Of a stretch of 64,000 nt of DNA, positions 1-59,753 are shown piece by piece. Location of the stretch: NCBI GenBank assembly GCA_028554795.2, contig CM068835.1, forward strand, positions 28,832,311-28,896,310. The letters are read 5' to 3'. The notes under the pieces are model-generated. The model was not told the DNA's origin. It made no database searches and worked only from the letters and a program-made list of their open reading frames with translations. Each line of letters begins with the position of its first letter. Within the stretch, counting starts at the first letter, position 1. This DNA is from Sinohyriopsis cumingii (Eukaryota; Mollusca; Bivalvia; Unionida; Unionidae). Both the position numbers and the translations under genes were made by a program.

Positions 1-27
1 CCTTCACGTCCGCGCTTTGACTTTAAG
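1..27 (+). promoter_or_regulatory. Promoter element and TATA-like box of array gene 1
   Basis: Positions 1-18 match the CCTTCACGTCCGCGCTTT element that also precedes array genes 2 and 3. A degenerate TATA (CTTTAAG, 21-27) follows at the same spacing, and the start codon is about 55 bases further on, as in the other two genes. The upstream half of the promoter lies outside the window. The TATA is weaker here than in genes 2 and 3. Confidence 0.7.
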
Positions 28-81
28 AACCGGGGTTGTTTACAGTCTAACCATCCATTGTCGACTCATCCTCCTACGAAG

Positions 82-309
82 ATGTGCTCCAAACTAGCTA
101 AGCTAAACGAAGCCTACGTGAATGTGCATAGGGTCAGACACAATCTGATACCGAAGCCAGAAGAAATAGAGAATGTGAGAATGTTAAAAGTCACTGAAGA
201 CCTGATAGAAGAGCTCTTCAGAGAAGAAGTGAACAGGGAGAAAGAAGAATGGACAGAGAAGTACAGACTTCAGAGACAGCAGCAACAGCAGCAACAACAA
301 CAACAATAA
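82..309 (+). CDS. Array gene 1: Lys/Glu-rich helical protein ending in a polyglutamine tract
   Basis: Intronless ORF of 75 codons from the first ATG (82). It begins MCSKLAKLNEAYVNVHRVRH and is then charged and helical, ending in a Gln tract. The pattern L-x-E-A-x-V-x-V-x-x-V-R followed by an EEV...KE-W block recurs in array gene 3, so the two are paralogues. The stop TAA (307-309) interrupts a run of CAA/CAG codons and is one base from CAA. The frame stays open for 47 more codons to a TAA at 451-453. Only that later stop gives the short 3' leader (37 nt to the stem-loop) seen in genes 2 and 3, so the present stop may be a recent nonsense change or allele. I recognise no known domain. Function unknown. 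Confidence 0.6.
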   Translation: MCSKLAKLNEAYVNVHRVRHNLIPKPEEIENVRMLKVTEDLIEELFREEVNREKEEWTEKYRLQRQQQQQQQQQQ

Positions 310-490
310 CAGCAGCAGCAGCAGCAACCTGAAGCTGACAGAGGCTTTGTCGATTGTCGTATCGACACCAAAGAGTTCTTCTTCTCTTTCCGAAGAAGCA
401 GACCTATTGCCAGAAAGTCCATCCTCAGAGGACATCGCATTCTTAGAAACTAAAAAAGATTGCCATAGCAAACAAAAAAAAGCAAAAAAC

Positions 491-506
491 AGCCCTTTTC
501 AGGGCT
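491..506 (+). promoter_or_regulatory. Histone-type mRNA 3' stem-loop of array gene 1
   Basis: AGCCCT-TTTC-AGGGCT forms a perfect 6-bp stem with a 4-nt TTTC loop, followed at once by ACCCA. This is the canonical replication-dependent histone 3' end, bound by SLBP in animals. The loop, stem length and ACCCA cleavage context all match. No histone is encoded upstream. Confidence 0.92.
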
Positions 507-519
507 ACCCAATACTCTA

Positions 520-532
520 GAAAAGAAATAAC
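520..532 (+). promoter_or_regulatory. Histone downstream element-like purine tract, gene 1
   Basis: GAAAAGAAATAAC begins 13 nt after the stem-loop. Position and purine-rich composition fit a histone downstream element that pairs with U7 snRNA. The same sequence is present after gene 2 and a close variant after gene 3. Confidence 0.8.
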
Positions 533-540
533 CATCAATT

Positions 541-700
541 TGCCAATGTGTGTGTGTGTAGGTAGAGTAGTGTGAATATAAACACTAACTCTTTTTTAAT
601 AGTGTGAGTGTATGTGTTTGTGTGTTTGTGTGTTTGTGTTTATAACCGCTCACGTACGTTGGTGTGGATAGTAGATTAAGATGATTTTTTTTTGGTGTTT
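541..700 (+). repeat. Conserved spacer of the tandem array, copy 1
   Basis: The GT-rich spacer after gene 1 (TGTGTGTAGGTAGAGTAGTG, then a CTAACTC block and (TGTTTG)n) is repeated after gene 2 at about 1368-1500. Stem-loop to stem-loop distance is 824 bp. This shows that genes 1 and 2 arose by tandem duplication of the whole unit, spacer included. Confidence 0.85.
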
Positions 701-828
701 GAGGTGTGGGAGAGTAGATTTGGGGTTGGATTGCTTTGCGTATGTGGATAGTCTATTGAAGTGGTTAATGAAAAAAAAATTTTAGAATAGGAATGGGTAG
801 TATAAAAAGTGAGTGAGTGTTTCTTTTA

Positions 829-920
829 GGTCCGCGCGTTGTTTTGGTCATGATCTAGGTAAGATCAATTTTATGTTTTTAGGGGGATGTTTTCCTTCAC
901 GTCCGCGCTTTCACTATAAA
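829..920 (+). promoter_or_regulatory. Bipartite promoter of array gene 2
   Basis: Two copies of the TCCGCGC core (830-837 and 901-908) bracket a conserved block containing GGTCATGATCTAGGTAA and GATCAATTTTATG. TATAAA follows at 915-920, and the coding start lies 52 nt beyond it. The same two-core layout with the same intervening block precedes gene 3 (1578-1673). Such uniform promoters suggest coordinated expression. Confidence 0.75.
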
Positions 921-971
921 TTGAAACTCGCTGGGCAGTCTAGCTACCCTTGTTCATTGATCAACACCAGA

Positions 972-1283
972 ATGAATACCAGAATAAGCAAACTTCTTGA
1001 ACTCCAGATACATCTGGAATATGTCAGGCGCCTGTTAAATGAACTGGCTGCGGAGGCTATAGTAGAAGAGGAAAGAATAAAGAAGGAAGAGGAGGAGAGA
1101 AGACAGAGGGAAGAGGAGGAAAAGAAAATAGGAGAGAGGATGGCTTACAAGATACCAGAGACAGAGGATTGGGGTGATGAAGCTAATCATCCTCCCTCTG
1201 CGCTCCCAGCCAAACGTGTCAACTGGAAAGACTGGAGTAGAAGATGCGTGTGTGGCGCCAGGCCAGGAAGGTGCCAGCATTAG
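972..1283 (+). CDS. Array gene 2: Lys/Glu-rich coiled-coil protein
   Basis: Intronless ORF of 103 codons. I chose the ATG at 972 because it lies 52 nt after the TATA box; an upstream extension of the frame would run through the promoter. It starts MNTRISKLLELQIHLEYVRR, then has a dense EEERIKKEEEERRQREEEEKK helix (residues about 36-56), then an unstructured Trp-containing tail with a Cys pair (RRCVCGARPGR). The LLEL...YVRRLL portion aligns with array genes 1 and 3. The stop is 31 nt before a histone-type stem-loop. It is not a histone or linker histone, and I recognise no known family. The 3' end suggests a replication-coupled, non-polyadenylated mRNA. Confidence 0.75.
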   Translation: MNTRISKLLELQIHLEYVRRLLNELAAEAIVEEERIKKEEEERRQREEEEKKIGERMAYKIPETEDWGDEANHPPSALPAKRVNWKDWSRRCVCGARPGRCQH

Positions 1284-1314
1284 ATAGGTGCATCTGGAGT
1301 TCAAAAAAACCAAC

Positions 1315-1330
1315 AGCCCTTTTCAGGGCT
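1315..1330 (+). promoter_or_regulatory. Histone-type mRNA 3' stem-loop of array gene 2
   Basis: AGCCCT-TTTC-AGGGCT followed by ACCCA, identical to the stem-loop of gene 1. It is preceded by AAAAACCAAC, resembling the usual CCAAA flank. The purine element GAAAAGAAATAAC follows at 1344-1356, again 13 nt downstream. Confidence 0.93.
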
Positions 1331-1343
1331 ACCCAATACTCTA

Positions 1344-1356
1344 GAAAAGAAATAAC
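1344..1356 (+). promoter_or_regulatory. Histone downstream element-like purine tract, gene 2
   Basis: GAAAAGAAATAAC is identical to the element after gene 1, and its spacing from the stem-loop fits U7 snRNP-directed cleavage between the two. Confidence 0.8.
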
Positions 1357-1367
1357 TATTAATTTGC

Positions 1368-1500
1368 CAATGTGTGTAGGTAGAGTAGTGTGAATATAAA
1401 CACTAACTCTTTTTTCATAGTGTGAGTGTATGTGTGTTTGTGTTTGTGTTTGTGTTTGTAACTGCTCACGTAAGTTTGTGTGAATAGTAGATTATGGGTT
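1368..1500 (+). repeat. Conserved spacer of the tandem array, copy 2
   Basis: Near-copy of the spacer at 541-700, including TAGGTAGAGTAGTGTGAATA and the (TGTTTG) tract. It places genes 1 and 2 in one duplication series. The spacer beyond gene 3 does not contain it. Confidence 0.8.
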
Positions 1501-1577
1501 TGTTTATTGTTTCTTAGCGTATGTGAAGAGTATAGTTTGGGTTTTATTATACGAAATGAGAAAGTAGGGGATGTTTT

Positions 1578-1673
1578 CCTTCACGTCCGCGCGTTGTTTG
1601 GTCATGATCTAGGTAATATCAATTTTATGTCTTGGGGGATGTTTTCAATCACGTCCGCGCTTTAAGTATAAAA
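1578..1673 (+). promoter_or_regulatory. Bipartite promoter of array gene 3
   Basis: CCTTCACGTCCGCGCGTT at 1578 and CAATCACGTCCGCGCTTT at 1646 flank the shared GGTCATGATCTAGGTAA block. TATAAAA follows at 1667-1673. The ATG lies 52 nt after the TATA. The layout is the same as for gene 2. Confidence 0.75.
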
Positions 1674-1724
1674 CTAACAGTGTTTGCCATTGGAGCCCAT
1701 TCTACGGAATAAGCAAACAAGAAG

Positions 1725-2318
1725 ATGCCAGCAGCTTCAGCTTTGTATAACAACCTTATGGGAAGTTGGTATTGGATGGTGGATGGATTGAATGTAGCAG
1801 AAAGGCTTGAACAGGAATGGAGGCATGCAGTGACAAAAGACTTCGTCTCAAGACAAGTAACCAGCCTCCACTTAGCCATCGATATTGTAAAAGAAATGAT
1901 AGAGGATGAGGAGAAGAGAATCAGAGGTTTAATTAACCCACCGTATGTGAAAGTGGGTAAGTTGAAAGAAGCGATAGTTTATGTGACGAGTGTAAGGTGT
2001 TTTTTAGAAGACATTGTAGAATGGACAGATTGGTCTTTTGTGAAGTGGGGCTTAGACAAGCTTAAGAAAGCGGAAGAAGTAATGAGGAATGTGCTGACCG
2101 AAGAGGTCGAGAAGATCAAAGAAAAGTGGTCAAAGGAAAGAAAAGAAGAAGAAAATAGAAAGAAAAAGGAAGAACTAGAGAAACTAAACGCTAACTGGAT
2201 GAAAATCCAAGAGAAGTTCCGAGCCATGGGTCACCCGGACTGGATGCTAGAAACAGAAAAGAAGAAGAAAGGAATGATGGAAAAAATAAGAGGATGGTGG
2301 AAGAAGTTAAGGAGTTAG
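1725..2318 (+). CDS. Array gene 3: long Lys/Glu-rich helical protein
   Basis: Intronless ORF of 197 codons, the longest of the array. Residues 1-45 are mixed and Trp-containing (GSWYWMVDGLN). Residues about 46-70 (QVTSLHLAIDIVKEMIEDEE) and about 83-130 form two related helical blocks. The second block, with KLKEAIVYVTSVR and LTEEVEKIKEKW, aligns with the body of array gene 1. The C-terminal third is strongly basic/acidic helical and ends GWWKKLRS. The gene therefore looks like an internally duplicated, longer paralogue. The stop is 22 nt before a histone-type stem-loop. No signal peptide or known domain is visible. It is unlike any histone; a DNA- or chromatin-associated role would be inference only. 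Confidence 0.8.
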   Translation: MPAASALYNNLMGSWYWMVDGLNVAERLEQEWRHAVTKDFVSRQVTSLHLAIDIVKEMIEDEEKRIRGLINPPYVKVGKLKEAIVYVTSVRCFLEDIVEWTDWSFVKWGLDKLKKAEEVMRNVLTEEVEKIKEKWSKERKEEENRKKKEELEKLNANWMKIQEKFRAMGHPDWMLETEKKKKGMMEKIRGWWKKLRS

Positions 2319-2340
2319 AAGAAGAAGAAAAAAACCCAAA

Positions 2341-2356
2341 GGCCCTTTTCAGGGCC
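2341..2356 (+). promoter_or_regulatory. Histone-type mRNA 3' stem-loop of array gene 3
   Basis: GGCCCT-TTTC-AGGGCC has a perfect 6-bp stem, the usual 5' flank ACCCAAA, and ATCCA after the stem. The first and last pairs differ from genes 1 and 2 (A-T to G-C), a compensatory change that shows selection on the RNA hairpin. GAAAAGAGAATGAC follows at 2370-2383 as the downstream element. Confidence 0.93.
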
Positions 2357-2369
2357 ATCCATATTTCTC

Positions 2370-2383
2370 GAAAAGAGAATGAC
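2370..2383 (+). promoter_or_regulatory. Histone downstream element-like purine tract, gene 3
   Basis: GAAAAGAGAATGAC lies 13 nt after the stem-loop and is a variant of the element behind genes 1 and 2. It marks the end of the visible array; no fourth unit follows. Confidence 0.75.
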
Positions 2384-2439
2384 TTTCCATTGCCTACCCT
2401 TTTTTTAAAAAAAATTTTATTTTAAAAATTTAAAAAAAA

Positions 2440-2690
2440 ATCAAAAAAAATCCCATATTCAATTCCCCTTGTCCCTAGACAGACCCAAACTCTATTCCCC
2501 ATGTTCAATTTCCCTTGTCCCTAGACAGACCCAAACTCTATTCCCATGTAATGCTAATTCCCCTTGTCCCTAGAGTTGCCCACGATTTTTCTCCATGTTA
2601 AATTTACATAGTCCCCACAGTTGCCCAGGGGTGTCTGTAATGGTAATTTCCATTGTCCCTAGGGTGCCCCACCTCACTACTAATCTGTTT
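2440..2690. repeat. Decaying tandem repeat with CCCTTGTCCCTAG core
   Basis: At least five spaced copies of the core (C)CTTGTCCCTAG, the first two embedded in a ~57-bp unit that includes ACAGACCCAAACTCTATTCC. The later copies are degenerate. It follows the A/T homopolymer stretch after gene 3. No coding potential. Confidence 0.75.
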
Positions 2691-6252: not shown

Positions 6253-7951
6253 AACTCAACCCCAGATTGCTGTGCAGCTAAGTCAACTGCAACAGGAATA
6301 AGAGATTGGACTAAATCTCATCATTGTTTTATTTGTGGAAAAGATGTAAAGAAGATATCAAAACATCTAGAACAAACATATAGCTAATCCACAAGTTTCA
6401 GAAGCCTTGTCAAAGCCTAAATGATCCAAAGTACGAAAACGTTATTTAAAAAATCACAGAAATTATGGTGATTATAAGAGGAACATCAATGTATTGAAAT
6501 TGGGAGGTCAGATGATAGTTCAAAGAAGACCAGTTGAAGACAGCAATTAAAGAAAGTATGATTATGGATGCTCACACTGCTATGGATTTTACAAAGAGAG
6601 AGATCTATGGAGACATTCCAAGGTATGTTCGGTAAAACACCCAGAAATGACTCAGTTACATGATCGAACATTAAAAGGACCTGCCAGCAGATTATTTCCA
6701 TGGCAACTGGAGGAATACAAAGTTTCAAGACCTTATTTTATCAAAAATGAACAAGGATCAAATTTCTTATTGTTAAAAATGTCACTTTTAAAATTTATAT
6801 GAACAGACACTCTTGGACACAGTGGTTATGGAGCGCAAGGATGAAATGTCAAACAAAGTCAGGAATGTAGGTCGCCTTTTGCAAGTCTTGAGATCCTTAA
6901 CAAACAAGTGCTCAGCCAAAATGGAAAGTTTCATCGATCCTGCATTTTTATTTTATATGGTCGTTGACTTTACAACGGAACTGGCGGGCAATACACTGGA
7001 TGAGCAAGGCATACACATACACACACCAAGCCTTCTGCGGATAGGATACAGTTTGAAAGCCTTAAGGGTTATCCTAAGAGGGAAAGCAATAAAGGAAAAT
7101 AAAGAAGAATTGATAACAAAGAGTAGAAACTTCGTAGAGCTGATGGATGGTGAATGGACCATTCTGAGCACTAATGCACAGAAACAGCTACACGAAAACG
7201 AGATGATATTCCGGAGAAACCATCACTGACTGAAGATGTTAGAAAACTCAGTACTTTTTGTCAACATGAGATCAAAAATCTCTGCGACAGCGCTGATCGA
7301 CAGAAAACGCTGAATGAAGAGGACTGGATGGCTTTAAATGGATATTTGTTGTGGCTTTTGGCTTCCTTTAATACCAGAAGAGGTGGTGACTGTGCACAGT
7401 TGCCGATACATGTTTGGATTAGAGCAGAAGAAAGGCAGTGCATACAATATTTTGAATTGATAATTGACGACACAGAAATTGTTGGCCAAGAGACTCAAGG
7501 TTTGCTCCATTTCAGAGAAAAGACGAAAGAAGGTGCCAATAATATTAACACCTGACGTTACGCGGGGAATAAGGATTACAATAAAATATAGCCATTGCTT
7601 GGGGTTTTCAACACGAACAAGTTCGTTTTCGCAATACAAAGATTGAAAGTGGGCACATTCGTGGGTGGGATAGTGTGAGACATTGTGCACATAAATGTGT
7701 TGCAAGGTATCCTGAACTTTCAACCTCTACCAAGAAAAGAAAATACCTGGCTACTGTTCTTCACTTGTTAGACATGACGGATCCAGAACTTCGATGGGTC
7801 ACGGAACATCTTGGACATTCAATTGATGTCCACAAGTGGTACAGGCTGAATGACACAACAGTTGAACTAACCAAAGTAGTAAGAGTACTTTGTGCCGTAG
7901 AACGAGGAATAGTCAAAGCAAACTTGAAACAAAGTTCTCTTCAGATAAAAG
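6253..7951 (+). pseudogene. Zinc-finger/tyrosine-recombinase-like gene, copy 1, large exon (broken)
   Basis: After a phase-0 acceptor the exon encodes, in shifting frames: a CxxC finger (HHCFICGKDVKKISKHLEQ, from about 6318); a second finger (YDYGCSHCYGFYKERDLWRH, about 6556-6620); a helical region (6813-7210); a segment with LASFNTRRGGD (about 7365); VPIILTPDV (about 7540); and a recombinase-type end with KKRKYLATVLHLLDM and LGHSIDVHKWY (7715-7850). The last resembles box II of tyrosine recombinases (LR...AT...LGH...Y), although the first His is not evident. Frameshifts near 6380, 6800, 7215, 7510 and 7650 plus stops make it a pseudogene. The donor at 7951/7952 leaves phase 1. The family is recurrent in invertebrate genomes; its exact role is not established here. 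Confidence 0.72.
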
Positions 7952-8500
7952 GTACTGATTAGAGTTAAAAGATTGTATGTTGTCAAATAAAATAAAAAAG
8001 CGTGCACGTTGTCATGTGAAATACCTTTCATGTATCTTAATGTACAATTTTTAAAAAATTAAAACTTTCGTTACCTGTGATAAAAATAGGAATATCAAAA
8101 TACAGATAAATACCAAACATTTAATAAGCAAATGTAAACTCACTCTACTTGCATAATCGATGAATAAGTTTGCAATATTGCGGTTTTTAACATAGGGATC
8201 AAATTGTATGTGTAAAAGTAATTGTATTGTTGAAGGAATCTAGTAAGGGATTCTTCTAATACAGCACCTTGAACATTTACTATCGCAGTTTTCGAAAATA
8301 GTTGATGTACATCAAAGTTAAAACTTATATTGTATTTCAGCTATTAATGTTATCAGCATTCTTCACATATGATTATTAAAAGGTTTGTACTGATAATCTT
8401 TATGAATCAGTAACATAGTTAATGTTGTTGCATTTTACACACCCTTCATTATTCTCCTGCAATCTGGCCATAGGTAGCAATATTGATTGTATATGCTTGG

Positions 8501-19765: not shown

Positions 19766-21841
19766 ATGGCCGGTAACCGAGAACAACTCGATAACCGTCT
19801 GCGTTCATTGCTTGACAAACATGCCCCAGCTGCCAAGTGCAGAGTATCAATTCAAAAGTGTTCTTCATGTTATAGCAGTGTTAGGGATCAGCTTCCCACT
19901 GCTAAAAGAGACCGCCATAAAGCTGAGAGACTCTGGCTTTCCACCAGACTCACTATTCATAAGCAAATCTATGAAGTCGCTAAGAAGAATGTCACATATA
20001 TAGTCCATGCAGCGAAATCAGCCCACTACACTACTAAGATCATGGAAAGTTCCAGCTGCAAAGAGCTCTTCGAGATTACTAACAAGCTAATGTCAAGGAA
20101 CAAATCAACACCACTTCCAACCACCTTCTCTCCAGTCGACCTTCCGGACATATTTGCAAATTTCTTCCGTGACAAACTACAAACCATTAGAGATAAGCTT
20201 GATACCACAATTTCAATTGACTCGTCGTCACCATACAGTTGGGATACAGAATTGGAGCGGCAACCATTAGCAGCATTTGAACCTGTCTCTATGGATTTCG
20301 TACGAACAATCCTGATGAAGAGTGCACCAAAGTCATGTGAACTTGATCCAATTCCAGCATCACTGCTGCTTGAGTGCTTAGATCCAGTATTGCCTTCACT
20401 AACTGATGTTATTATTACCTCTCTCTCATCCAGGGAATTCCCATCATTTTTGAAAGCTGCCATTGTAAAGCTTCTGTTGAAGAAACCAACACTAGACCAT
20501 AACGATTTAAAGAACTACCGCCCAGTTTCTAATCTCCCATTCATATCAAAAATCTTAGAAAAGGTTGTTCTATCCCAGCTTGTATCTCATCTAAATTCCA
20601 ACAGTCTTTTTAGCAATGTACAATCTGCATATCGCTCTTGCCACAGTACTGAAACTACTCTTCTAAAAGTAGTTATTGACATTCTCTCTGCGTTGGATAG
20701 CGGAAAGATTACAGTCCTCACCCTCCTTGATTTGTCTGCAGCGTTTGACACAATAGACCATGATATATTACTTCATCGTCTCCAGCATGTATTTGGCATT
20801 CATGATACAGCCCTACTGTGGTTCAAGTCCTACTTGGTCAACAGGACACAAATTGTATCTGCAAATGGAATACACTCCAGCCCAGCTGATCTATGTTGTG
20901 GTGTTCCACGGGGGTCTGTTCTTGGACCTGTTCTGTTCTCTTCATTCTGTATACTCAGTCGCTCTCAAGTGTCATAGATCATCATCCAGTGTCTCACCAA
21001 TTGTACGCTGATGACACCCAAATATACAAATCTAGCCACCCAACTGAAGTTGATGCTACCATCCAAGGTGCAGAGAGGTGCATTTCTGATGTGAAATCAT
21101 GGATGACATGTAACAAGCTGCAGATGAATGATGATAAAAATGAGGCCATTCTGATCACAACACAAAAACTTTCTCATTCAACATCCTTTACCTCAAACAA
21201 TAAATATCAGCAACACCAACATTAAATTCACACAATCAGCACGAACCCTAGGTGTTACTCTGGACAGTACTCTCACGTTGCACCAACATGTCGTGAACAT
21301 ATGCAAGGCTGCATATCTTGAGCTGAGATTCATCAGCTCAGTTCGCAAATATCTTTCAGTTGATGCCAATAAAACACTTTTGTGTTCATTAGTACTTTCA
21401 AGACTGGACTATTGTGACTCAGTTATGTCTGGTTCATCTCAATATCTACTCCAGAAACTTCAAAAAGTTCAAAACACAGCTGTACCACGATTAGGGCACA
21501 CCTCCCCGCTGCTCTGTACCCTACACTGGCTATACATTCGATCCAGAATCAAACACAAAATGTGTTGTCTGTGCTACATTTCACTGTCGGACTCTATTCC
21601 AACATACCTATCCGATCTCATCCATGTGTACACACCAACAAGATACTTATGCTCCTCTTCTGACAATCGTATACTCATTATTACCACTATGAAAACAAAG
21701 TCATATGGACAGCGTTCTTTTGCATACCAGGGCCCAGCAACGTGGAATGAATTACCCACTGAACTTAGACACAAAGACACAGTGATCACATTCAAGAGGG
21801 CTCTCAAAACTCACTTATTTCGACTGCAAGAACAAACTTAA
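19766..21841 (+). pseudogene. LINE copy A ORF2: reverse transcriptase remnant
   Basis: The first frame (to about 20940) encodes the region before the fingers and the RT blocks NYRPVSNLPFISKILEK, QSAYR, LLDLSAAFDTIDHDIL and CGVPRGSVLGPVLF. A frameshift just after GPVLF moves the catalytic YADDTQIY motif (about 21001-21024) into another frame. A second frameshift near 21200 is followed by the conserved C-terminal part (LSRLDYCDSV, GPATWNELPTELR) ending at 21841. The endonuclease domain is absent. The order of RT motifs is diagnostic for non-LTR elements. The copy cannot encode a functional enzyme. Confidence 0.9.
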
Positions 21842-26749: not shown

Positions 26750-28842
26750 TCGGAGTATATGTATATTCTGATAGTGAATAATAGTCTTCAGATGATGAAC
26801 AATATGTATCGGATTCACAACCTACTGACTCGTGTGATTCTGATATAATACCCAACCACCTTAAATTGGATTCCTTAAAACTAGAGGACTATCTGGAGCT
26901 GAAGCCTTCAAAGAAAACGAAGACCTCTCAAAAGACATCCTTAAATGAAATCCTGTCAAATGAAATGTCGGATTCAGACATAGCTGGTCATATCAAGAAA
27001 CAGATCACATAAAAATAAATTGGTTCTTACGTTGCGAAATCAATTCAAAACAAAGTAGTTTCATCGATCGGTTTGGAGCCAATAGCAAACAATGTGGCCC
27101 CATTGACAGTCCCCAAAACAAGCAATGCCGGGCAGAGATCTTATGACAAAAAGTTTTCTGTTTATATTGTAACAAATCACAAACAAAATTACCGAGACCT
27201 CTGATTTGGCAACATGAAGACGAAACAGAGGTAATATAACACATTATGGAAAAGGTTCAGGGGAAAAAGAAAGAGCTTCTTGATAAACTTAGGAATATAG
27301 GAAATCATATTCACAACCGTGACATGCTAAAGAAGGGGGAAGGAGAACTAGCAGTACGCTATCACCAACATTAGACAATTCCAAAGCTGATGACTATGGT
27401 CTATATCCATATTGCTTCCGCTATTTTGTACGCAGAGAGCTCTGGAATCATAACTGTCCTTTCAAACCTTCGAAAGAAGCGGGAAGGCGACACATGATGG
27501 CTAAGTCAAGTTCACTGCTCCTGCCCTGCACATCCGGAGTGACTGTCAATCTTCGAACCGTTATCGCAAGTTTGAAACAGGATGATATTAGAAGGATTGC
27601 AAAAAGTTACGATATCATTTTTGCATTCGGAGAAAAACTCTGCTGTCATCACGGCCATGACAAAGAACAACATAGTTACATACGACAAAATTGAGAGAAA
27701 TGGGGCGTCTAGTTAAGGAGCATAGAAAAACGGAAAATAAGCCAGATCAATCGATAAAGGATTTTATAGATCCAAAATATTTTCGAGCTGTGATGGATTC
27801 TAGCAAAGCAATATCGCTATTTGATATACATTTCAACAGGTACGGCACTCCATCTCTTGCCCTGAAATTAGTCCAGTCCTTGCAGAAATGTGCAAAAATC
27901 AAAGTAAGTCAAGCCATCGAAAATCAAGACAAAGCCCTTCAGGCAAAAGGGGAAGAGTTCGCGAAACTCTTAGAAATAAATTGGACATAAGAAATCGCTT
28001 CTAATGCTCTAAAGACATTACATGAAGGGAAGTGAAATACAAGTTATAAAATGCTCCCCCTTGCAGACGAAATAAAGTCCCTGACAGACTATTTGAAAAA
28101 AACGTCAGAAGAAACATACGAGTCCCTGATAAGTTCCACAGAGAAGGAAGCAGTCAAACAATACTGGGTGGAACTATCAGAAATTTTGTTAGCGCAAACG
28201 ATTTTATTCAACCGACGTCGTGCCGGGTAAGTTTCGAAAATGACCACAGAAGAATAATCAAATACACACAAGGCGGACATAGATGGTCCAATTAAAGATT
28301 CATTGACAGAACTGGAGAGAAAGCTGTGCATGACTTTGACTAGGATTGAAACAGGGGGAAAAAGGACGAATAGTTCCGGTTTTATTTAATACTCAAACCA
28401 CAAAGTACCTGGATACACTAAATGAAAGAAGATCATTAGTTGTGAGAGGATCGAACCAGAATTTATTCCCGAGAGCAACCTGTGGAAACTCACATTTACG
28501 AGGTACAGATTGTCTCCACAAGTTTACTGCCAGGTGTGGCGCAAAAACAACCCCAAAAATTAACGTCAACCAAGTTGAGAAAGCAAATAGCGACAATGTC
28601 GCAACTAATAAATATAAAAGATAACGAACTCGACATTTTGGCCAATTTTCTCGGTCATGATATCAGAGTTCATCGAGAGTATTTTAGGCTGCCAGAGGCT
28701 ACTATCCAGGTGGCAAAGGTCAGTAAAGTCTTGTTAAGGATGGAGAAGGGCGGAAAAGGCTTGGGGGCCAGGCAATCCCTAGATTCCATAAATCTGGAAG
28801 AGGAGAGTGAAGTGGACGACGTAGACGACGAGGAATTCGAAG
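26750..28842 (+). pseudogene. Zinc-finger/tyrosine-recombinase-like gene, copy 2, large exon (broken)
   Basis: Same plan as copy 1. It has an acidic start (SSDDEQYVSDSQPTDSCDSD, about 26778); a finger CLYCNKSQTKLPRPL (about 27160); a second finger YGLYPYCFRYFVRRELWNHN (about 27396) in which the first Cys is Tyr; a helical region with LKLVQSLQKCAKIK (about 27870); and ILFNRRRAG (about 28200). Next come GRIVPVLFNTQTTKYL (28360), TKLRKQIATMSQL (about 28584) and LGHDIRVHREYFRLPEATIQ (about 28650-28710). The last two are the recombinase box-II-like end. Stops near 26766, 27012, 27360 and 27990 and several frameshifts disable it. The donor at 28842/28843 leaves phase 1, as in copy 1. Copies 1 and 2 are distant paralogues, not recent duplicates. 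Confidence 0.75.
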
Positions 28843-29206
28843 GTAAAATGGGTACCATTAATATATGAGTATATTTCCTTTGCAATCATTTTTTTCTTTG
28901 GGTGATATTTAAACAGCAACATGGTTATATTTTAATTTACAGAATGTTTGCTACTAGCTAAGTGTCACAAATTATTCATTGGTATTATCATATCAACTCT
29001 AGATGTGAGAACAATCAGCAACACACCTTTTGTAGATTGATAAACAACGTAAACAAAATCGTTTGGTAAAATATAGCTTTAAAGTTTATTTTTCAGTCAT
29101 GGTTTCCTGTAAAATTACAAATTAGAATTTTTCTTGAATTCTAGCATAATTTTAATTTGAATCATTAATAATCCTTGTTTCAAATAACCAGTTATATAGA
29201 CAGTAA

Positions 29207-40539: not shown

Positions 40540-41400
40540 TTTCAACTCCAATATTTGGACAACCATTTGTAATTGAGATATTTTTGCTACTCTAGACACA
40601 GCCAGATAAACTAAATTTGACCATTCGATGCAATCATCGACAAACCAGATGTTGGTATCTGATATTGTTAATCCCTTAGACGAATGGATTGTTATTGGAT
40701 ATCCAAGAGTCCAGCACGATTAATTTAACGACAATGCCTGTTGTACAGCTTCCACTAGAACATCGACGATATCATGAAGAACGGGTTTTTGTTTTACGCG
40801 GACACCACTTGCTGATTTGGAAATTTTTCCTTGTGAAGCTCAAATAATATACGCTGAAGTGAATCACAGACATTTTTCCTCTGAGTAACGATTTCAGTTG
40901 TCGTATAGTTGTTCATCCTGCGATTTATGGTCGTACAAAACGTCTTTGTAGTAGCTAACATAATTGATCAACCATTCGTGTGTTGATTCATCTGTAAACT
41001 GCGGAGGCTGTCCATGATAACCAAACACGATAATTGCAGTAGATTTTATTGATAAGCAATCAAGAAACATTTCTAAAACATTTTCGGATACTGTACAAAT
41101 CTCATTCCAGATAATTATTATCGGGATATATTTCTCACCCATTCGTTCGGGAGTCCTTGCATTACCTCGCCATCTAAAGAAACTATACGTGCATGCGCTG
41201 ACACCACGTTGTCTTGTCTCTCTGGCAAGTCGGTGAGTTGGAATCAACACAATCATGTCAGAGTTTTTAAATAATTCTATCACACGTGTTGTTTTACCAG
41301 AACTACCTAGACCATCCAAACAGACCGCGCTATATCTCTTGACTGGATCGTTCTCTGACGGTGGTGATGATGGTTCTGATAAATTATCGTTCTAATAAAT
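40540..41400 (-). pseudogene. SF1 helicase remnant (Pif1/RecD-like) of the virus-like element
   Basis: On the minus strand the frame opens NDNLSEPSSPPSENDPVKRY, then has Walker A GLGSSGKTT (about 41300), a motif Ia-like LIPTHRLARE, and a Walker B-like IIIIWNEICTVSE in which the usual Asp is Asn. It continues with motif III VFGYHGQPPQF (about 41010). After a stop near 40893 and a frame break, motifs V and VI appear as ITIHSSKGLTI and NLVYLAVSRV (about 40570-40700). The full order of SF1 motifs leaves little doubt about the family. The Asn in Walker B and the stops mean no activity. An N-terminal extension is probably encoded up to 42240. Confidence 0.82.
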
Positions 41401-57690: not shown

Positions 57691-57699
57691 CGAACATAT

Positions 57700-57792
57700 T
57701 GGCTACTGTCACCGTTACGTTTATTCAGAAACTTCAGACTTCACATCTTAGGCATAGGCTATCGATGGTTTCAACACATTTAGTTCATTTAA
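57700..57792 (+). repeat. ~90-bp dispersed repeat, copy 1
   Basis: About 75% identical by eye to 60236-60332: shared CTACT-TCAC-GTTA-GTTTA, ACATCTTAGGCA and CACATTT. The two copies flank LINE copy B on both sides. It is too long and diverged for a target-site duplication. Confidence 0.7.
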
Positions 57793-57809
57793 AAAACAAG
57801 CAGGCTGAC

Positions 57810-59753
57810 TCTCTCTTTTTGGAGAAGTTTCCGAATCTTCTGAACTATGGAAATTCGATAGGTGGCAACCTGGTTATTCTTGGAGATTTCAACTTTCACT
57901 TTGACTGCCCCGGAAACCCAAATACATCAAACTTCATCGATACCATTAATGTTTTCAACCTGAAACAGTCAGTTAACCAACCCACCCATAAACACAGTCA
58001 CATTTTAGATTTGATTCTTCATAGACCTGATGATAACATTCTACGGTCCTCCCTGATATCCCATGACCTTGCAACAGATCACCTCTGCGTTATATGCCAT
58101 CTTGACGTATCAGTCCCTAACCCTCCACCTTTATCTGCTACTAAGAGAAACCTCTGTATGATAAATAGAACCAAACTAATGCATGACATCCAAGCTAACT
58201 TAACAACTTGCTTACCTCCTACCGCAGAACAACTCGATAACTGCCTGCGTTCATTGCTTGACAAACATGCACCAGCTACCAAGTGCAGATTATCAATTCA
58301 GAAGTGTTCTCCATGGTATAGCAGTGTTAGGGACCAGCTTTGCGCTGCTAAAAGAGACCGCCGTAAAGCTGAGAGGCTTTGGCTTTCCACCAGACTCACT
58401 ATTCATAAGCAAATCTATGAAGCCTCTAAGAAGAATATCACAAATATAGTCCATGCAGCGAAATCAGCCTACTACACTACTAAGATCATGGAAAGTTCCA
58501 GCTGCAAAGAGCTCTTCGAGATTACTAAGAAGCTAATGCCAAGGAACAAATCTACACCACTTCCAGCTACCTTCTCTCCAGTCGACCTTCCGGACATGTT
58601 TGCAAATTTCTTCCGTGACAAAGTACAAACCATTAGAGATAAGCTTCACACCACAATTTCAATTGACTCGTCGTCACCATACAGTTGGGATACAGAATCT
58701 GAGCGGCAACCATTAGCAGCATTTGACCCTGTCTCTATGGTGAAGAGTGCACCAAATTCATGTGAACTTGGTCCAATTCCAACATCAATGCTGTTTGAGT
58801 GCTTAGATCCAGTATTGCCTTCACAAACTGATGTTATTAATACCTCTCTCTCATCCGGGGCAATCCCCATCTGTTTTCAAAACTGCCATTGTTATGCCTC
58901 TGCTGAAGAAACCAGCACTTGACCATAACGATTTAAAGAACTACCGCCCAGTTTCTAATCTCCCATTCATATCAAAAATCTTAGAAAAGGTTGTTCTATC
59001 CCAGATTGTATCTCATCTGAATTCAAACAGTCTTTTTAGCAATGTACAATCTGCATATCGCCCTTGCCACAGCACTGAAACTACTCTTCTAAAAGTAGTT
59101 AATGACATTCTCTCTGCGTTGGATAGCGGAAAGATTACAGACCTCACCCTCCTTGATTTGTCTGCAGCATTTGACACAATAGATCATGATATATTACTTC
59201 GCCGTCTTCTGCATATCTTCAGCTGAGACGCATCAGCTCAATTCGCAAATATCTTTCAGTTGATGCCACTGAAACACTTGTGTTTAGTACTTTCAAGACT
59301 GGACTATTGTAACTCAATTATGTTTGATTCATCTCATATCTGCTCCAGAATCTTCAAAAAGTTCAAAACACAGCTGCTCGGATCATACTTAGAGTACAAC
59401 GATCAGAGCACACCTCCCCGCTGCTCTGTACCCTACACTGGCTATCCATTCGATTCAGAATCAAACACAGAATTTGTTCTCTGTGCTACGTTTCACTGTC
59501 GGACTCTAGTCCAACATACCTATCTGACCTCACCCATGTGTACACACCAGCAAGGTACTTACGCTCCTCTTCTGACAATCGTATACTCATTTTTCCCACT
59601 ATGAAAACAAAGTCATATGGACAGCGTTCTTTTGCATACCAGGGCCCAGCAACGTGGAATGAATTGCCCACTGAACTTAGACACAAAGACACAGTGATCA
59701 CATTCAAGAGAGCTCTCAAAACTCACTTATTTCGACTGCAAGAACAAACTTAA
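57810..59753 (+). pseudogene. LINE copy B ORF2: endonuclease tail and RT remnant
   Basis: The first frame (to about 58860) starts with the end of the apurinic-type endonuclease: LVILGDFNFHFDC (the GDFN motif) and LATDHLCVICHLD (the SDH-like motif). It continues into the region before the RT. A frameshift near 58862 moves the NYRPVSNLPF, QSAYRPCHSTE and LLDLSAAFDTIDHDIL blocks to a second frame. The internal deletion then removes the YADD catalytic motif. The C-terminal GPATWNELPTELR part ends at 59753. Inactive. Confidence 0.9.

Follow-up and report, generated by a model that had tools for sequence, protein, structure and literature searches.

A Polinton/Maverick element in the genome of Sinohyriopsis cumingii with terminal genes that appear to carry histone-type expression signals

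The 64,000-nt stretch of Sinohyriopsis cumingii DNA analyzed here (contig CM068835.1 of assembly GCA_028554795.2, positions 28,832,311 to 28,896,310 of the forward strand; hereafter “the window”) opens with three tandem genes, numbered 1 to 3, each of which is followed by a histone-type stem-loop, and these three are the right-end genes of a Polinton/Maverick element. We consider it probable, at roughly 0.8, that the element represents a Polinton/Maverick lineage with a histone-type expression cassette on its terminal genes, which would work via the host replication-dependent histone programme; its sequence shows the signals of both histone-gene ends around open reading frames (ORFs) that are not those of histones. 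An earlier note on this DNA had described genes 1–3 as non-histone, coding and furnished with histone-type 3′ ends, which stands, and had taken them for an ordinary tandem host family, which does not, because they sit inside a many-copy Polinton/Maverick with terminal repeats, a target duplication and core genes. That membership was revealed by a check the note itself had named, i.e., searching the genome for the 16-nt stem-loop and reading what lies upstream.

The element and its copies

The window's copy of the element is 20,053 bp long overall, begins upstream of the window (G000:C12:28814939) and contributes its right-end part to positions 1–2681 (+ strand, as are all the features of genes 1–3 given below), which makes the unit limits of 1–2383 proposed earlier too narrow. 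Its right terminal inverted repeat (2333–2681) and the left counterpart (L032:2629-2973) agree at 97.1% of 350 aligned positions, and an imperfect tandem repeat of about 46 nt (2452–2672) makes up the outer part of the former. Directly beyond lies the target-site duplication AATCTG (2682–2687), the identical six bases of which are found at the left flank; a target duplication of 6 bp is typical of Polintons. The outermost stem-loop of each end sits within the terminal inverted repeat, stem-loop 3 being the right one.

The unit runs from a divergent stem-loop pair through PolB, a packaging ATPase, an integrase, capsid-like ORFs (putatively, from position and sequence, the major and minor capsid genes) and a putative protease to the three stem-loop genes. 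Pfam matches for the window's copy comprise the family B DNA polymerase PolB (PF03175, 4.9e-37), the rve integrase (PF00665, 3.6e-14) and, likewise over its cut-off, the A32 ATPase (PF04665, 4.7e-8), and those for a second copy are closely similar (1.9e-38, 2.6e-14 and 1e-7, the last again over the cut-off), gene assignment in copies other than these two having been made by eye. The integrase of one copy (L043:769-1878) also has a chromodomain (PF00385, 1.2e-7), and a CCHC zinc-knuckle protein (L035:9043-9492), with no stem-loop of its own seen, is encoded between left-end gene A and PolB, in the orientation opposite to that of PolB. The core genes from PolB to the protease are without a stem-loop, and an AATAAA follows 120 nt past the protease, for which reasons these genes are probably polyadenylated. 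The assignment to the Polinton/Maverick class rests on the fit of genes and terminal repeats to the description in the consulted part of PMC9683012.

The material read beyond the window consisted of 30 short loci and 16 pieces of 10 kb (the window and the pieces together amounting to 224 kb), and units of about 20 kb were seen in these loci and pieces. All five copies that could be followed end to end (the window; L034-L036; L036-L038; L039-L041; L042-L044) have five stem-loops, three at the right end and a divergent pair at the left. Across the 2.905 Gb of the genome, the 16-nt stem-loop, with at most two mismatches, has 67,529 matches (33,358 forward and 34,171 reverse), as opposed to 1,291 (642 forward and 649 reverse) for a reversed-pattern control. 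A hand count of 100 listed exact sites, all within the initial 6.28 Mb of a single contig, gave at least 23 divergent stem-loop pairs, 1.07–1.10 kb apart, from which a rough extrapolation of about 10,600 such pairs per genome follows if that stretch is typical; the element is apparently present in very many copies. Beside the element, a second Polinton-like type was encountered (L033; A32 ATPase 4.5e-12, rve 2.9e-7 just under its cut-off, helicase-like 0.0013), for which no stem-loop was found in the 10 kb read, a stretch that stops short of the element's ends; since this second type shows none in the stretch read, the histone-end trait may be confined to one Polinton lineage. An ORF of this second type (L033:356-1243) and one of the window (40894–41319, − strand) are related, with 54% identity over 79 aa, and look helicase-like by eye.

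Histone-type 3′ ends

The claim of the earlier note that each of the three genes is followed by a histone stem-loop with a purine-rich element 13 nt further on was borne out. Stem-loops 1 (491–506) and 2 (1315–1330) both read AGCCCT-TTTC-AGGGCT and score 31.0 bits (E 6.4e-5) and 31.7 bits (E 3.3e-5) with the Rfam model Histone3 (RF00032), i.e., 2–3 bits short of the family cut-off of 34 bits, and stem-loop 3 (2341–2356; GGCCCT-TTTC-AGGGCC) exceeds it with 38.9 bits (E 7.2e-8). The downstream element, resembling a histone downstream element (HDE), is GAAAAGA in each case (520–526, 1344–1350 and 2370–2376) and begins 13 nt past the respective stem. The predicted folds of all three hairpins agree with the stems as drawn. 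On both strands of the window, a loosely defined pattern comprising the stem, the loop and the purine-rich element has three sites versus 0.033 expected per 64 kb, and five versus 0.72 if the purine-rich element is left out (expectations from 60 simulated windows). Stem-loops 1 and 2 cannot be counted as two separate pieces of evidence, as two blocks (75 and 90 nt) that comprise the stem-loop and the sequence beyond are each 92% identical between the two genes.

The compensatory changes that had been claimed for the stem of gene 3 come down to one outer pair (A-U versus G-C), which is indeed there and is not significant on three sequences (179 of 500 shuffles reach it). Over 48 distinct contexts of the genome, collected with the three inner pairs fixed and a nearby purine-rich element required, the outer pair is A-U in 14, G-C in 34 and broken in none, and the purine-rich element, whose presence but not place was demanded by the search, stands at exactly 13 nt in 46. 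In 140 kb of the pieces, 15 of 24 stem-loops pass the Rfam cut-off, and the nine that fail all have the outer A-U.

The 3′ ends are alike on otherwise unalignable genes: in eight pairings among genes 1, 2, 3, A and B, identity from the stem-loop to the downstream element amounts to 0.60–0.93 versus 0.17–0.44 upstream (the pairings 1/2, with their duplicated flanks, and 3/B, which share the terminal repeat, being excluded from the average). The stem-loops stand in gene orientation, 21–34 nt past the stop codon in 25 of 26 listed element ORFs and 63 nt past it in the remaining one. From the stop codon to the next promoter, genes 1 and 2 have no AATAAA or ATTAAA.

Terminal genes and their proteins

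Genes 1–3 are three intronless ORFs, each lying between a TATA-type box and a histone-type stem-loop. Gene 1 (82–309) encodes 75 aa in the window's copy, where an early stop (307–309) ends it 181 nt upstream of stem-loop 1, and has longer intact versions in three other copies; gene 2 (972–1283) encodes 103 aa; and gene 3 (1725–2318) encodes 197 aa, related ORFs preceding the outer stem-loop in other copies. The ORF-length test marks genes 2 and 3 clearly as coding, and gene 1 less so, because first-ATG ORFs at least as long were found in 39, 0 and 408 of 20,000 resamples, respectively.

That the encoded proteins are not histones, as had been stated before, was upheld: these charged proteins match no Pfam family above the cut-off, histones included, where a host H2B used as a control gives PF00125 at 1.7e-22. 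Decayed histone genes, which the earlier note had named as a possible refutation, are disfavored for the proteins by this lack of histone homology together with the excess of third-codon-position differences among copies described below. Genes 1 and 3 have a stretch in common (BLASTP E 2e-4, reached by none of 1000 shuffles), the match between genes 2 and 3 is a charged low-complexity stretch (3 of 1000 shuffles), and genes 1 and 2 have no BLASTP match (90 of 1000 shuffles reach the observed score). Further searches brought a best match of E 0.032 in PHROGs for genes 1–3 and noise for gene 3 among PDB sequences (best E 0.017); no relatives of gene 3, of the capsid-like proteins or of PolB and no match to the three exact stem-loop patterns were found in viral_contigs, nor any relatives in genome_contigs or phages. 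A single-sequence AlphaFold model of gene 3 is all-helix and of low confidence (pLDDT 64), which is not enough to base a fold search on.

At the left end, the divergent genes are A (about 190 aa, starting MTETQ...) and B (about 76 aa, Arg-rich, starting MWT...). Among 42 stem-loop contexts, 38 have an ORF of at least 40 aa ending at most 70 nt upstream and four have none; one of these 38 ORFs is the host H2B, 19 fall into the named classes and 18 were filed as “other”, the seven of the latter that were listed being gene B (four), gene 3 types (two) and the tail of gene A (one). Pairwise differences among intact copies (the pairs of which are not independent) at codon positions 1/2/3 number 16/10/29 for gene 1 (three copies), 202/206/476 for gene 2 (six), 35/40/91 for gene A (four), 248/159/594 for gene B (eight) and 137/73/357 for subtype b of gene 3 (five). 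Third positions are thus the most different in all five gene classes compared, and because of this excess the terminal-gene proteins appear to be under selection, or to have been until recently. From their terminal position, one might guess at early regulatory roles.

A promoter motif in common with host histone H2B

The host comparison was provided by a tandem histone array (C1:5.073-5.085 Mb; L045, L046) that repeats about every 1,851 bp and has a core histone match (PF00125, 1.7e-22), the histone being, by our reading of its sequence, H2B; all seven array units read have a 127-aa frame and a stem-loop 27 nt past its stop. Aligned with the 3′ ends of genes 1–3, that of the H2B gene scores 37–45, versus maxima of 24–28 in 500 shuffles.

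The likeness extends to the other end of the gene. The 11-mer CACGTCCGCGC stands at 5–15, 77 nt upstream of the ATG of gene 1, and is identical in the H2B promoter, which contains ATGTTTTCATTCACGTCCGCGCGTTTC. Gene 2 has it at 898–908, with its TATA box at 915 and a partial copy, GTCCGCGC, at 830–837, and gene 3 has it twice: within an upstream promoter block (1571–1595, the motif at 1582–1592) and proximally at 1650–1660, followed by the TATA box at 1667. The TATA-type box lies 57–60 nt upstream of the ATG in all three genes, that of gene 1 being a weak TTTAAG, which was added to the TATA pattern to include this gene. The H2B promoter matches the upstream region of gene 2 over 27 nt (score 41, maximum of 500 shuffles 25) and that of gene 3 over 25 nt (45, maximum 27), the latter at the upstream one of the two motif copies. 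With both strands considered, the 224 kb contain 22 occurrences of CACGTCCGCGC, 15 in elements and seven in H2B units, and each is found at most 1 kb upstream of a stem-loop on its own strand; such zones cover 7.0% of the sequence. Being related by descent, the copies are not independent events. Since this kind of 3′ end and the promoter block are both shared by host H2B, histone-like expression of genes 1–3 can fairly be expected.

Other elements in the window

Two copies of one non-LTR (long terminal repeat) retrotransposon family (19766–21841 and 57699–59604) have reverse transcriptase (RVT_1) and endonuclease matches and are 82% identical over 221 aa, and an uncharacterised two-ORF unit is present in two diverged copies (6813–7962 and 27691–28868; 30% and 38% identity).

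Discussion

The cassette proposed here would work as follows. At the right end, the promoter motif CACGTCCGCGC, in common with host H2B and 17 nt before the TATA-type box, would have genes 1–3 transcribed together with the histone genes, i.e., in S phase, the cleaving embryo and the germ line; at all five terminal genes, the histone stem-loop and HDE-like 3′ end would have the transcripts cleaved by SLBP and the U7 small nuclear ribonucleoprotein (snRNP) after the ACCCA-type flank, without poly(A); and the terminal, perhaps early, proteins would then be present when host and element DNA replicate. The simplest benefit would be that, in dividing cells of the germ line or embryo, the terminal genes of a replicating element are coupled to S phase, and a second one might be compactness, because the stem-loop and downstream element fit within the terminal repeat. 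That this lineage took over the whole of the histone programme, promoter and 3′ end alike, and thereby ties the expression of its terminal genes to DNA replication, is a stronger proposition, which we would favor only slightly over its negation.

Could the hairpins instead be DNA signals or generic terminators, serving replication, packaging or the stopping of convergent transcription, and not SLBP/U7 processing signals? The location of the outermost hairpin within each terminal repeat is what such a role would lead one to expect; however, internal genes also have the hairpin, it is oriented with the genes and stands 21–34 nt past the stop codon in 25 of the 26 listed element ORFs, and a downstream element fixed at 13 nt would be unnecessary, which together make this explanation unlikely. 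Even less credit can be given to the idea that histone-gene flanks were captured once and that dead elements now passively carry copies of the signals as relics: the match of the signals to host H2B and the broken gene 1 of the window's copy would suit it, but each element retains five stem-loops on otherwise unalignable genes, not one outer pair is broken in the 48 contexts, and the ORFs show the third-position excess. Capture as an origin is compatible with a working histone-type cassette, and it is the “relic” part alone that is disfavored. A host-owned, lineage-specific tandem gene family expressed with the histones, to which a tandem of intronless ORFs with TATA-type boxes and histone-type ends might point, is highly improbable given that the element around the genes has terminal repeats, a target duplication and the core genes of a Polinton, and that the genes are found again in its other copies.

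Several observations weigh against a histone-type cassette on a Polinton/Maverick lineage as proposed here. On the promoter side, the exact CACGTCCGCGC motif is absent from left-end genes A and B and from two of the five gene 3b copies; the motif-to-TATA spacing is 17 nt in genes 1–3 versus 40 nt in H2B; the match of the H2B promoter to gene 1 (16 nt, score 27 versus a maximum of 24) is marginal, the window edge cutting the promoter of this gene; and the host comparison covers one histone type, H2B. On the 3′ side, an AATAAA stands just before the stem-loop of gene A and an ATTAAA 216 nt after it, and the first such signal after gene 3, an AATAAA, lies at 2738, 382 nt past stem-loop 3 and outside the element. 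A search for the SLBP family gave 0 hits here and, as it also gave 0 in 14 control genomes, is uninformative. As for the element itself, the adenovirus-like protease (PF00770) stays below the cut-off in both copies (E 0.0066 and 0.0084), the capsid ORFs have no family, solved-structure or viral-contig match, the element-end pattern has no match in the other copies read, for which reason the target duplication is shown for the window's copy only, and the copy numbers are extrapolated, with degraded copies contributing to them.

If the histone-type cassette is real, the many copies of a mobile element would constitute a large class of non-histone genes with a histone-type mRNA end, and one could name a concrete mechanism for the S-phase timing of gene expression in a virus-like element. 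Such genes might then be misread or missed, both in searches for stem-loops and in RNA-seq of poly(A)-selected samples, and, with tens of thousands of ends, the non-histone stem-loop loci may far exceed the histone genes in number and vie with them for SLBP and U7. According to the abstract of PMC6303110, replication-dependent histone mRNAs are the only protein-coding mRNAs of animals known to end in a stem-loop and not in poly(A). Among the literature matches listed, the coverage of which leaves out most subscription journals, there was no description of histone ends on a family of non-histone or transposon genes, nor of a Polinton with histone-type ends or an H2B-like promoter motif. Histone-like proteins, a matter separate from histone-type mRNA ends, are mentioned for adomaviruses in the part of PMC11071296 consulted.

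The closest likeness in virus-like genomes comes from a Polinton-like virus and virophage collection, for which the section of PMC12220804 consulted reports six hits to the histone 3′ untranslated region (UTR) stem-loop, none of them in the cryptophyte ones; these resemble our case in being matches in related virus-like genomes and differ in appearing as a non-coding RNA-class entry, the genes, downstream element, promoter and function not being discussed in that section. With replication-dependent animal histone genes, the terminal genes share the lack of introns, a TATA-type promoter, a short 3′ UTR, the TTTC-loop stem-loop, the ACCCA-type flank and the purine-rich element, and they differ in that their proteins are non-histone and owned by a mobile element. 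With Polintons/Mavericks (adintovirus-like), finally, the element has in common its length of about 20 kb, terminal inverted repeats, the 6-bp target duplication, PolB, a retroviral-type integrase (with a chromodomain in one copy), the A32-type ATPase and, as a weak match below its cut-off, a candidate adenovirus-like protease, and it differs from them in its five terminal genes with a histone stem-loop and downstream element and in a right-end promoter motif common with host H2B.

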